From Watersipora subatra (taxonomy: Eukaryota > Bryozoa > Gymnolaemata > Cheilostomatida > Watersiporidae), in NCBI RefSeq assembly GCF_963576615.1, contig NC_088711.1, positions 19,686,182-19,750,181 of the forward strand: a DNA stretch of 64,000 nt, in the 5' to 3' direction. Every line of letters begins with the position of its first letter. The stretch's first letter is position 1. A program made the translations under genes and the position numbers. The notes beneath the pieces were generated by a model. The model was not told the origin of the DNA. It made no database searches and saw only the letters and a list, made by a program, of their open reading frames with translations. This document shows positions 35,819 through 48,008 of this stretch, in pieces.

Positions 35819-37267
35819 ATGCACGTTACCAACAGCTGCTTCAATAGCATTGAAGACATGAATGAGTCACTCTTTGACTTTCGAGACGAGTGGGGGTGTG
35901 GGTCTGAGTCGGCAAAGACTGGCTGGCTTACTACTACTGATGGAGCGAAGGAAGGCTATAAGACTCCGAGCTTTGACTTTTCTGGTCAGGATTTATCGGC
36001 GGAAATAGCAGATATTACAGAAATTCTTACCACTTCAGACTTAGCTGTGGATAGTAACACTTCTAACTGTGAATCAGGTAAGCTTTCACAAGCCTCTTAC
36101 AGCAAAATAGCATACAATCATCGCTCTACAAACTATGTAACTCGCTACTTGGCTAAGTCTCATAGACCTAGCCAAGTAATTTAACAAAATATGTTATTTT
36201 CTTAATACATTGTCCTGTACTTTGCAGAACTCGAGCGAGTTTATGGACATGTTGAGGGCTTTCTGAACACCTGCTCACAAAAACAGAACCTTCCTCAGCA
36301 TATGTATGCTCAGGAACCTTCAGTTGATATCTCAAGCACCTCATTGGCAATTGACTGCAATGGCTACACTCAACCTTCTTCCATTTTTTCACACGCTTCA
36401 ACGGGAGTCAGTGACAGTTCGTATGCGCAGTCAATAGCCTCAGCACCATGTGACACTCTTTCCACACAATATCCTTCAGTATTTAATTCGTCTACCTATA
36501 TAACTCCTCCCCATCAAGACATGTTTGTGCAACAAGAAACACAGCTAACTACTCTGCAACACTCTCAGACCAATGACTATGTTCGAACTGCCCCTTGTTC
36601 CAGTAACAGCTACTCAGCATATGGTCAGGACTCTTTTTCTACATTTTTACCAGAAGTAGAAATGAATTACAACAGTTCCTCTAGCTCGGCGTTTACCCAC
36701 TTACCAGCCACCGTTAAAGATGAGCCCTTTGACTGTTATACAACTGCTCTTCCTTCTAGTGCACCAAGTTCCCCCGAGAGTTTTACCGATAATCTAGAAT
36801 ATCAGGCAAATGGCACGCAATGCCCTGTAACACAATCCCGACCTCGAGCTCATTCCTTGTGCAAAACACCACCACACGAGAGACCATATCCTTGTCCGAT
36901 GGAGACATGCGAGCGCAGGTTCTCACGTTCAGATGAACTCACTAGACATATTCGCATCCATACGGGACAAAAACCATTCCAGTGTAAAATCTGCATGCGG
37001 GCATTTAGCCGAAGCGATCACCTTACAACACACGTAAGAACACACACAGGCGAGAAGCCCTTTTCGTGCGATGTTTGTGGAAGGAAGTTTGCTAGAAGTG
37101 ATGAGAAGAAAAGACACAGCAAAGTACACATCAAGCAGAGAGTAAAAAAAGAGCGACTCGCGGCAGCAGCTCAGAGCATACCTTGCTCAACATCTGACTG
37201 TAGCATGTGGTCACACGACTCCGTAAACCTTCCAATGCAAATGGGTGTTATTTCTTCCCGGTATTAA
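35819..37267 (+). CDS. Egr: EGR-family zinc-finger transcription factor
   Basis: Nuclear immediate-early type activator expected to bind GCGTGGGCG-like sites. Two exons, 35819-36077 and 36228-37267, join in phase 1 and give 432 residues, within the range of vertebrate EGR1-4. Three C2H2 fingers at about residues 306-388 have helices [16 protein letters not shown] and RSDEKKRH. The base-contacting residues of EGR1 are all kept, and only a non-contact Arg is Lys in finger 3. The linkers HTGQKP and HTGEKP are intact. The N-terminal 300 residues are Ser/Thr/Gln/Tyr-rich, as in EGR activation regions, with VKDE (249-252), a SUMO consensus, before [11 protein letters not shown]. Start chosen at ATG 35819 (A at -3); the frame extends upstream only through a TTG. 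A short intron in the N-terminal part is typical of EGR genes. Proximal CArG and CRE-like sites suggest stimulus-induced expression. Which vertebrate EGR it is closest to cannot be told; it may be the single pre-duplication gene. Confidence 0.95.
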
Positions 37268-37378
37268 AGCTAAGATTATAGTATTGCTACTTTAGCATCA
37301 TATAGTCATATTTTTGATACTACAAATGTAAATAATATTTTTCTTTCAAACGAGATTTAGTGTATATGTTTGTACAGA

Positions 37379-46100: not shown

Positions 46101-48008
46101 GCTGAAAATATAAGATGGCTGTAATAACTGAAATAGTGCTCATACGCGAAACACTTTCTGTTGCAGTTGAGAGTATGGTGAAAAGGTTGCTGGTATACCC
46201 TCAGTAATAATGTCTAACGATGTCCCTTGTATTGTTTTTGCTAGGAATATGAAAAATGCCAACAAAAAGTTGACAAGCTGAAGAAGAAAGAAAGAACAGG
46301 TCCTAATGTGGTGAAACTCGATACGGTACGCTAATCATGGCCTGCATGGAATCAGACCAAAGTTTCTACAACTTTGCTGCTATATTGTTATGAGTTGTCT
46401 GCCCCTGGATGTTTTGTGTATGTTTTAGGCTCGTAAGTCTCTTTCCGCTATCAAGAAGGAATTTGAGGAAGAGAATGAAGCACTACTTGACTACATGACA
46501 TCCTTGTATGAACAGCGAGCGGACTACTTGACTCCCAGCATTCATGCTCTCATAAACATAGAGGTATTTGGTAGAGCAGACAACTCTGGTTTATATGTTG
46601 TCACCATCTCGGATTCATTGTGGGCCCTTACACAATCACCGAGCCATCATTTTAAATAAGATTTGTCATTGATACTGTGAATGTAGTCCAATGAAAATCA
46701 ATTCCTAAATTATGACCTATCCTTAGTATAAAGTTACACCAAAAAAGTTAATTGTGATATTTAAAGATTGGACAACTCCTAATTGTAAAAACAATTGAGT
46801 GTAACATAAAACTGTTGTACTCAGCTTTATATCTTATTAAGCTCTCCATTCTTTCTGATAATATTTAAATAGAGCCCGTCAAAGTGATACTTTTATGTTT
46901 CATCCTAAAAATAAGTCTTTTTCAACAATTTTGCGATGACCAACTCATGAAAAGAGAATTTATATACGTATTTAAAAAAAGATAGGAGATTTGAAAATTA
47001 TAAACTTTGCTAACTGTTAAAATATCGTAACATTGATAAAAGAATGCTTATAATGACATGCAGGAGAGAATGCATGCCAAAGAAAATTAGGTTTGATAAT
47101 GCCTATTCACAACTATATTCGTAGTAAAGTATGTTTTCTCAACCTATGTTAACTATCTTAAAAAAGGTTATAGAAAAACCTTGAACATAATAAATGGTCA
47201 ATAATACAATGTGTTTCAGTTAGCTGAGTTTTATGTCAGCTATATAGTATTAACAACAATTGTCATTGCTCTGACTAATTGCTACAGGCGCATGTGCCAA
47301 ATCATTAAATATTTTTCCAGAAAGAAATTACGGTCCCCTCCACATATGAATCTAATTCATTACATAGCCTGTTCTATTTTGGGATCATATATGGTCATCA
47401 GAGGAACTGTATTTCATTCCAGTTTACAAACCTATGATAACTTCTTAATAAACCCTTCGAATAGTTTCATATAACAGTAAAAGAAAGTGTTAGAGAGAAA
47501 TAAATAAATATGTAAAATTATGTTAATAAACTAGTAATCAATGAAAAGTAGTTTTATTGTTATTTCACCTCATAGACATGCAACTAGAATCATGAGCCTC
47601 ATGATCCGTAAGTTCTGAGGTAGATTACTGATAGAGATATCCGGTGTGACTTTGTGACTTACATTAAACAACGTTTAAGCTAACCTAGCTTATGTTTGCT
47701 AGTAATTATTACTATTAATTTTTTTTTTTTTTTTTACTTTCAATTTTCACCTTAAGTCTCCGAATGAACTTAAAATTGATTCCTTTTTGTATCGCTCATT
47801 GATTCCTTTTTCATGCTCAAAGTATTTTCTTCCAGTTTGATGGCTAAACTCTACTCTTTTATAGATATGCCACATCGCTGAAGGCTTTCGGTTCTATTCT
47901 GAACTTGAGGCAAGCGTAGACACACAAAAGGACAAAGGTCAGGAAGAGTCCGCTAAAGATGACAGATTCAATGAGTTCAAGTCTTTGACTATTGTTTCCA
48001 CCGATTAA
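40154..48008 (+). CDS. BIN3: BIN3, BAR-domain bridging integrator
   Basis: Amphiphysin/RVS-family protein of the cytoplasm that binds and bends membranes as a BAR dimer. BIN3 is linked to actin organisation and cytokinesis, and like its relatives here it has no SH3 domain. Coding exons: 40154-40161, 40411-40465, 40925-40965, 41810-41871, 42023-42159, 42935-42975, 45157-45217, 46245-46325, 46429-46563, 47865-48008. All phases agree, giving 254 residues against 253 in human BIN3. Matching landmarks: SREFHSKVKRL...LHKDVKQL near the N-terminus, EYEKCQQKVDKLKKKERTG (human KVEKYEEKEKTG), YEQRADYLTPSIHALI (human YGSRLDYFQPSFESLI), and the C-terminal FKSLTIVSTD (human LRALSIVADD). Nearly the whole chain is helical BAR domain. 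The first coding exon holds only Met-Asn and part of Trp, echoing the human MSW start. The human segment after MSW is about ten residues shorter here. Introns 3, 6 and 7 contain tandem repeats, intron 5 a MITE and intron 6 a TIR element. Confidence 0.93.
40970..41255. repeat. Degenerate tandem repeat in BIN3 intron 3
   Basis: Irregular copies of a unit of roughly 28 bases, TGTGTATCATCATGTGTATG-like. It begins within a few bases of the exon 3 donor. Confidence 0.65.
42308..42758. mobile_element. Fold-back MITE family F3, complete copy
   Basis: Ends TTTAAGATAAACTTACACAA and, inverted, TTTAAGATGAATTTACACAA. The inverted arms run for about 160 bases on each side (matching blocks include ATGTTTGAGATGATCTGA and TCAGATTACTTCAAACAT) around a 120-base centre. 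It lies in BIN3 intron 5. No coding capacity. Confidence 0.75.
43262..44583. mobile_element. TIR DNA transposon, non-autonomous, copy 2 (uninterrupted)
   Basis: Left end ATGGTAAAACCT and right end GAGGTTTTACGGTAT form the inverted pair. In reverse orientation it matches 9466-11140 in order, without the 356-base insertion. Shared blocks include CAGTTTGCAGACA, CAATTAATCTGCGATG-like sequence, GACCTCAACTCTTC and CAAGGAACTACTATTAGCCT. In BIN3 intron 6. Confidence 0.8.
44597..44915. repeat. 44-base minisatellite in BIN3 intron 6
   Basis: About seven copies of ACCTCTATGAATAGC...AGAGTTTTTGATAGGTGT, decaying rightward. It starts about 15 bases after the end of the TIR element and ends about 240 bases before exon 7. 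Confidence 0.85.
45255..45510. repeat. 28-base minisatellite in BIN3 intron 7
   Basis: About nine copies of GTCTCTGTTGAAGTGTTTTACAG-like sequence, starting about 40 bases after the exon 7 donor. Confidence 0.85.

Follow-up and report, generated by a model that had tools for sequence, protein, structure and literature searches.

The two EGR loci of the bryozoan Watersipora subatra, with BIN3 and ADO as downstream neighbours, suggest an EGR neighbourhood older than the vertebrates

The window analysed here is a stretch of 64,000 nucleotides from the Watersipora subatra genome (NC_088711.1, positions 19,686,182 to 19,750,181, forward strand), and positions below are counted from its first letter. 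It harbours an EGR gene, called EGR-A in the following, which consists of two exons (35819-37267, plus strand) and encodes a product of 432 aa. The gene and the motifs in front of it are:

35317..35326, plus strand, CArG box CCATATAAGG, followed by TGACGT at 35336; the same module precedes the second EGR copy, EGR-B
35644..35653, plus strand, second CArG box CCAAATAAGG
35732..35740, plus strand, site with the EGR consensus GCGTGGGCG, its first base 87 bp upstream of the EGR-A ATG
35819..36077, plus strand, EGR-A exon 1, beginning with ATG and ending at the donor GTAAGC
36228..37267, plus strand, EGR-A exon 2, which encodes three C2H2 fingers and contains the stop codon
36857..37159, plus strand, EGR-type region of three fingers, sharing 87% identity with the EGR-B copy on C1

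The three fingers of EGR-A are matched in a single stretch by the EGR1 chain 4r2a with 178.8 bits, while WT1 chains stay below this value (118-134 bits, maximum 134.1). Higher whole-sequence scores than that of EGR1 were obtained for four other chains, three of ZNF568 and one of PRDM9; in the alignments, the ZNF568 totals are added up from separate stretches, none of which exceeds 67 bits. The finger motifs RSDELTR, RSDHLTT and RSDEKKR agree with EGR1 at residues -1, 2, 3 and 6, which we take to be the DNA-contact positions of fingers 1-3 in EGR1. Judged by its sequence, EGR-A belongs to the EGR transcription factor family, nearer to EGR1/Zif268 than to WT1.

In the promoters of both EGR-A and EGR-B, CArG boxes occur as a pair next to a CRE half-site, and the score of this common CArG-CRE module was reached by none of 1000 shuffles. 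When the whole window was compared with the EGR-B promoter as a control, two tiles of 424, which overlap each other, exceeded the EGR-A promoter (40 versus 37.5), and with chained scores one of 830 tiles was higher (91 versus 84.5). The CArG-CRE module is clear, but by these controls the overall likeness of the two promoters is only modestly above background. The EGR-B promoter also aligns to 40006-40052, just before BIN3, with a score above that of the module, which is probably due to chance. The EGR consensus site near the ATG is reported for EGR-A in addition to the module; one such site was found versus 0.10 expected, and at least one occurred in 10 of 100 shuffles. From these promoter motifs, EGR-A may be an immediate-early transcription factor gene, which could receive SRF/CREB-type input via the paired CArG boxes and the CRE half-site and might be subject to feedback through the GCGTGGGCG site.

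Downstream of EGR-A follows a BIN3 gene, for which a model of ten exons and nine GT-AG introns encoding 254 aa was assembled (40154-48008, plus strand):

37268..40153, no strand, interval between EGR-A and BIN3, 2.9 kb
40154..40161, plus strand, BIN3 exon 1, coding part
40411..40465, plus strand, BIN3 exon 2
40925..40965, plus strand, BIN3 exon 3
41810..41871, plus strand, BIN3 exon 4
42023..42159, plus strand, BIN3 exon 5
42935..42975, plus strand, BIN3 exon 6
45157..45217, plus strand, BIN3 exon 7
46245..46325, plus strand, BIN3 exon 8
46429..46563, plus strand, BIN3 exon 9
47865..48008, plus strand, BIN3 exon 10 including the stop codon

In BLASTP the model matches human BIN3 with 130 bits, E 2e-41, 68 of 242 identical residues (28%) and one gap. 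The Pfam BAR domain was detected at residues 22-211 (56.8 bits, E 3.3e-15), and the length of the model fits the expected BAR protein of about 253 aa. Behind the BAR domain the model terminates at FNEFKSLTIVSTD, and the Pfam scan of the model gave no SH3 domain. An end past BAR without SH3 and a LSELRALSIVADD-like tail are presumably hallmarks of BIN3; the C-termini agree, with FNEFKSLTIVSTD-stop in the window and LSELRALSIVADD-stop in the human protein. In the genome-wide exon search with human BIN3, a window exon was the first of four matches, and the two best matches are weak and close to each other (22.7 bits, E 0.027 versus 21.7 bits, E 0.055), so that the case for BIN3 orthology depends on the full-length model as assembled. 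Other BAR genes were rejected as the true BIN3. The one at C4:56.3 Mb has a single exon matching human BIN3 within the 6 kb read, and of the other BAR loci five stretches outside C19 were compared, each of which gave one exon match, either real or of low complexity.

Both gene models bear out the first-pass annotation, which had placed an EGR and a BIN3 gene side by side on the same strand: BIN3 starts 2.9 kb downstream of the EGR-A stop codon, both genes are on the plus strand, and the outer coordinates given there, 35819 and 48008, are the EGR ATG and the BIN3 stop. The upstream neighbour recognised beside EGR-A by Pfam is an aminotransferase class I/II gene at about 4-5 kb. Besides these three genes, ORF scans and Pfam named none among the window fragments tried, and in the roughly 30 kb upstream of EGR-A (5.1-35.8 kb) all four ORF fragments tested were without Pfam match.

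The human EGR3 gene at 8p21.3 presumably has BIN3 downstream on the same strand. With this human arrangement, the two loci share an EGR gene with BIN3 as downstream neighbour on the same strand; they differ in the interval, 2.9 kb in Watersipora subatra versus about 18 kb in human, and in that other members of the human block were not recognised in the window. The pair was compared between these two species. That human EGR3 and BIN3 are neighbours, as had been proposed at first pass, agrees with a published passage that lists them together in a conserved block of chromosome 8 shared with teleosts (PMC3890633). This kind of arrangement is already known, since Egr is named among ancient metazoan microsyntenic pairs (Irimia 2012 and Simakov 2013, cited in PMC13317027), and the window resembles such pairs and genomic regulatory blocks in combining a developmental regulator with a long-kept neighbour. 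It differs in that PMC13317027, in its passages on such pairs, lists Egr without its partner gene. The open-licence literature searched, including PMC3890633, PMC6422937, PMC10735318, PMC6687716 and PMC13317027, gave no naming of an invertebrate EGR-BIN3 or EGR-ADO pair.

The sole other EGR gene found in the genome, EGR-B, is located at C1:75020242-75020538 (minus strand), with a likely exon 1 upstream. Directly downstream of it and in convergent orientation lies an ADO exon (C1:75019284-75019787, plus strand). The exon matches 2-aminoethanethiol dioxygenase structures (best score 79.6 bits, E 1.9e-21), and of the three PCO_ADO matches listed it alone passes the cut-off; it belongs to the only ADO gene found in the genome. 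The adjacency of EGR-B and ADO is new here. An intron that carries a reverse transcriptase ORF apparently divides the bryozoan ADO gene, whose exon 1 is tentative. We take human ADO, at 10q21, to lie directly downstream of EGR2 in convergent orientation, the same arrangement as at EGR-B; a difference is that human ADO is intronless and the bryozoan gene apparently intron-split. One SNP has been placed 15 and 22 kb from human ADO and EGR2, respectively, in a passage of PMC6422937, and these distances fit the convergent order.

The two bryozoan loci keep their neighbours apart. A search of 22 kb around EGR-B revealed no BIN3 remnant (best E 2.0), the interval between EGR-A and BIN3 held no significant ADO-like match (weakest listed E 4.6), and no ADO remnant was found near EGR-A (best E 0.065, 55 kb off). 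The recognised upstream neighbours, the aminotransferase gene at EGR-A and a transglutaminase gene at EGR-B, do not match. The REEP family, another neighbour of human EGR genes, gave six matches, located around 20 Mb and 25 Mb of C1 and on C11, none of them near either EGR gene. The genome search with NRBF2, a further such neighbour, gave no match, but its controls likewise matched nowhere.

It might be argued that the resemblance to the human pair arose by chance, because extensive rearrangement is reported for bryozoan genomes, in which cheilostomes have almost no collinear blocks of at least four genes in common with a mollusc or nemertean (PMC13326412), so that one of many pairs could happen to look alike, and the EGR-BIN3 pair was picked after being seen. 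However, both EGR copies found have the downstream neighbour of a human EGR gene in the presumed human orientation. In a rough post-hoc estimate, based on 16,835 genes for Watersipora subatra (PMC12902671) and with the number of genes flanking human EGR1-4 set at eight, 0.002 matches to human EGR flanks are expected for any over four flanks, and the expectation for both EGR genes having a match is about 9e-7, or 6e-8 with side and strand. The second, independent EGR neighbour in the same genome, ADO as at human EGR2, makes descent far likelier than chance. Chance adjacency was therefore rejected and appears highly improbable, and the EGR-BIN3 pair in the window would be the inherited counterpart of human EGR3-BIN3. 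Given that bryozoan chromosomes are reported to be scrambled in comparison with those of other animals, a pair left intact there points to constraint or else to a very low rate of breakage at the locus.

The earlier proposal that the pair was linked before the vertebrate EGR duplications is thus strengthened with regard to inheritance by ADO beside EGR-B, while the same locus implies that EGR-BIN3 probably represents just one half of what the ancestor had. A single ancestral EGR gene probably had ADO (convergent) and BIN3 (same strand) downstream, most simply as EGR> <ADO BIN3>; EGR would later have been duplicated in the bryozoan line and, independently, in vertebrates, with the two neighbours retained at different EGR copies. 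We regard such a bilaterian block, split alike by independent duplications, as having about an even chance of being correct. Two loci, EGR-BIN3 and EGR-ADO, could instead have existed already in the bilaterian ancestor and been inherited by both lineages, which would suit the occurrence of the same two EGR-neighbour pairs in both species and the EGR-B fingers, in which 80 of 88 positions are shared with EGR1 and 78 of 88 with EGR-A. Against it, five finger residues are common to EGR-A and EGR-B but absent from EGR1 (taken from the PDB) and from EGR2 and EGR3, and in this comparison with EGR1, EGR2 and EGR3 no finger position ties EGR-A to EGR3 and EGR-B to EGR2, one even pointing the opposite way. 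Two ancestral loci are hence distinctly unlikely. Amphioxus and urchin presumably have a single EGR gene. Our data suggest that the EGR neighbourhood is older than the vertebrates and was broken up along parallel lines in the two lineages.

If the block was indeed divided in this way, the loci, two each in vertebrates and in the bryozoan, would be natural replicates in which it could be seen which part of EGR control follows which neighbour, and a known class, ancient Egr microsynteny, would become a replicated natural experiment on the partition of neighbours after gene duplication. Moreover, EGR-A/BIN3 and EGR-B/ADO mirror two human EGR loci, and genomes with a single EGR should accordingly hold EGR, ADO and BIN3 together. 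The joint explanation, which starts from the observed gene models, the two adjacencies and the motifs and extends to inherited EGR-BIN3, one ancestral block with ADO and BIN3, separate duplications, the roles of the motifs and regulatory retention as its inferred parts, is held with good confidence.

As to why the neighbours were retained, the most likely reason would be that EGR control elements are spread across the downstream interval. Inheritance of the pair without regulatory reason, the genes staying together because they lie close to each other in a region that seldom breaks, is a serious possibility, though short of probable; the interval measures only 2.9 kb, BIN3 spans 7.9 kb, and no conserved non-coding block could be demonstrated. 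It is opposed by the position of conserved microsyntenic pairs, Egr included, inside echinoderm TADs, which the authors consider to support long-range regulation (passages of PMC13317027). The first-pass annotation had suggested that EGR enhancers lie within the BIN3 introns, and a CArG box, CCATATTAGG, is indeed present at 40542 in BIN3 intron 2. This sequence is, as we assume, a c-fos-type CArG box. Nevertheless, the window contains five CArG boxes versus 4.7 expected, so that the intron 2 box is within expectation, and no BIN3 was found near EGR-B; a seat of the enhancers in these introns is doubtful, and a regulatory spread over the downstream interval is preferred. The BIN3 introns sum to about 7.1 kb, partly minisatellite and foldback-like repeat, versus about 30 kb upstream of EGR-A, and introns 6 and 7 contain one minisatellite each.

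The first-pass annotation had placed an EGR gene directly upstream of a BIN3 gene on the plus strand in the cheilostome bryozoan Watersipora subatra and proposed that this linkage is ancient. Gene models confirmed the adjacency:

4032-5092, plus strand: exons assigned by Pfam to an aminotransferase class I/II gene, which is the closest upstream gene to EGR-A that could be recognised
35819-36077 and 36228-37267, plus strand: the two exons of EGR-A
40154-48008, plus strand: BIN3, ten exons, nine GT-AG introns, 254 aa

The EGR-A product has 432 aa and three C2H2 fingers. In the comparison with solved structures, an EGR1 chain matched the finger region with 178.8 bits in one continuous stretch, while WT1 chains reached 118-134 bits; by whole-sequence score, three ZNF568 chains and one PRDM9 chain rank above EGR1, the ZNF568 scores adding up separate stretches, none of which exceeds 67 bits. 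At the finger positions that we take to be base-contacting in EGR1 proteins, EGR-A carries the EGR1 residues. The BIN3 model was aligned by BLASTP with human BIN3 at 130 bits and E 2e-41 (68/242 identical, 130/242 similar, one gap), and the alignment reaches the C-terminal tail. Pfam assigned it to BAR (56.8 bits), and its nearest solved structures are amphiphysins (44.7 bits), with no BIN3-named entry among the nine structure matches listed. The genome search with human BIN3 ranked the window gene first of four exon matches with a weak E value of 0.027, and a BAR exon at C4:56.3 Mb scored just one bit less; hence, BIN3 orthology rests on the assembled model and not on this ranking. The BAR gene at C4:56.3 Mb was rejected as BIN3, with a single-exon match to human BIN3 within the 6 kb examined. 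BAR exons were also seen in identical order and with similar but unequal spacing at C6:16541038-16561831 and, on a small scaffold, at C19:759689-784709, which may reflect a duplication or a haplotype copy left uncollapsed. The window (C4:19686182-19750181) belongs to a searched assembly of 783.72 Mb in 239 contigs, with C1 as longest scaffold (79.35 Mb) and C6 of 66.5 Mb; PMC12902671 gives 783.70 Mb, 240 scaffolds, a longest scaffold of 79.35 Mb, an N50 of 66.5 Mb and 11 chromosomes for tzWatSuba1.1. A search of the assembly for COX1 gave no match, although that paper includes a mitochondrial contig.

The ancient origin of the linkage is well supported, and the evidence comes from an independent second locus on C1, which was invisible to the first-pass annotation. 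Searching the genome with the EGR fingers gave 219 matches (150 of 1034 candidates scored, matches listed in part). Among those listed besides EGR-A, the match at C1:75020242-75020538 on the minus strand, named EGR-B, is 87% identical with 202 bits, and the next has 96 bits. This finger exon sits in a 448-codon open frame in L026, a stretch of C1 at this locus, and an upstream ORF in the stretch L034 is likely the first exon of EGR-B. A PCO_ADO exon (L026:543-1046; Pfam 5.4e-32) follows directly downstream on the opposite strand, separated from the EGR open frame by about 300 bases; it scores up to 79.6 bits against 2-aminoethanethiol dioxygenase structures and up to 47.4 against plant cysteine oxidases. 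Three places were listed in the ADO family search of the genome, and only the EGR-B neighbour was above the cut-off. The first ADO exon is tentatively placed at L033:6226-6465, in a third stretch of the locus, where Pfam gave no confirmation of this candidate. A reverse transcriptase ORF lies between it and the ADO exon, i.e. in the presumed ADO intron, and a transglutaminase C-terminal exon was seen upstream of EGR-B.

In human, BIN3 presumably follows EGR3 on the same strand, and we take ADO to stand tail to tail with EGR2. If these orders hold, the downstream gene of each bryozoan EGR is the downstream gene of a human EGR in the same orientation. The recognised upstream neighbours of EGR-A and EGR-B match no human EGR neighbours. 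PMC6422937 reports one SNP upstream of ADO, at 15 kb, and downstream of EGR2, at 22 kb; these distances fit the assumed tail-to-tail arrangement. PMC3890633 lists EGR3 and BIN3 among close-set genes of a conserved block on human chromosome 8 compared with teleosts. A rough post-hoc expectation for neighbour matches at both EGR genes is 9e-7, falling to 6e-8 once side and strand are also required, using the gene number from the PMC12902671 abstract and an assumed neighbour number. This kind of arrangement is already known; our search of open-licence papers found neither the bryozoan EGR-BIN3 case nor the EGR/ADO/BIN3 split.

The simplest history is one ancestral block. The bilaterian ancestor would have had the order EGR> <ADO BIN3> (arrowheads give strand), and vertebrates and the bryozoan line would separately have retained one neighbour per daughter EGR locus. 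Since a single-copy neighbour stays by one copy after duplication, a split of two neighbours would have about an even chance and need no special cause. Alternatively, EGR-A and EGR-B might represent two ancient loci. Identity over 88 finger residues was 78 between EGR-A and EGR-B, 73/73/70 between EGR-A and EGR1/2/3, and 80/76/75 between EGR-B and EGR1/2/3 (three of the four vertebrate EGR proteins, with the EGR1 sequence taken from the PDB); hence, by a small margin, EGR-B is closer to EGR1 than to EGR-A. Five residues are common to EGR-A and EGR-B alone, none of the 88 pairs EGR-A with EGR3 and EGR-B with EGR2, and one pairs EGR-A with EGR2 and EGR-B with EGR3. Because the fingers are so conserved, this comparison weakly favours a duplication apart from those of vertebrates over two ancient loci.

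Regarding the persistence of the pair, PMC13317027 counts Egr among conserved microsyntenic pairs within TADs of sea star and sea urchin, with the partner gene unnamed there. According to PMC13326412, hardly any microsynteny is shared between cheilostome bryozoans and the mollusc and nemertean set against them, with a minimum block of four genes that would miss pairs. The most likely candidate cause of retention is a putative regulatory overlap downstream of EGR. Putative EGR enhancers specifically within BIN3 introns are less likely, because these introns total about 7.1 kb (from exon coordinates) and contain minisatellites in introns 6 and 7 (44601-44909 and 45251-45516; 36-bp and 25-bp units) and, in intron 5, two oppositely oriented stretches, each of about 125 bp (42341-42734), a foldback or MITE-like repeat. 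Relatives of the latter occur at 21974-22027, at 58002-58340 and on C1 near EGR-B.

Vertebrate EGR genes are under serum-response control and self-regulation, and the motif content of the bryozoan promoters fits both as a predicted function. In the 502 bp that precede the EGR-A ATG, CArG boxes stand at 35317 and 35644. The window has 5 such matches against 4.7 expected, and the binomial chance of two of the five inside 502 bp is 6e-4, for a stretch length chosen after seeing the boxes. The one EGR consensus site found, at 35732 and also before the ATG, compares with 0.10 expected (at least one in 10 of 100 shuffles). In the EGR-B promoter, two CArG boxes (-472 and -421) flank a TGACGT at -457; no EGR consensus site was found in the 3 kb upstream. 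Common to both promoters is CCATATAAGGAGTG followed by ATGACGTA, directly or after four bases, and further down, in the same order, a second block GATTCCC...TGATTGGCTGA. Their best local score of 37.5 was reached by none of 1000 dinucleotide shuffles (largest 35.0). Against real window sequence the likeness is less well supported than against shuffles: two overlapping tiles of 424 score 40, and the chained score of 84.5 was beaten by one of 830 tiles (91). The former represent one alignment of 40006-40052, roughly 100 bp upstream of BIN3, with the EGR-B promoter, which is probably due to chance.

Convergent with BIN3, two minus-strand ORFs rich in charged and aromatic residues at 48465-49762 had no Pfam match. 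A long ORF at 52528-53387 was rejected, since it is a minisatellite of about 36 copies of 24-bp units that is open in more than one frame.
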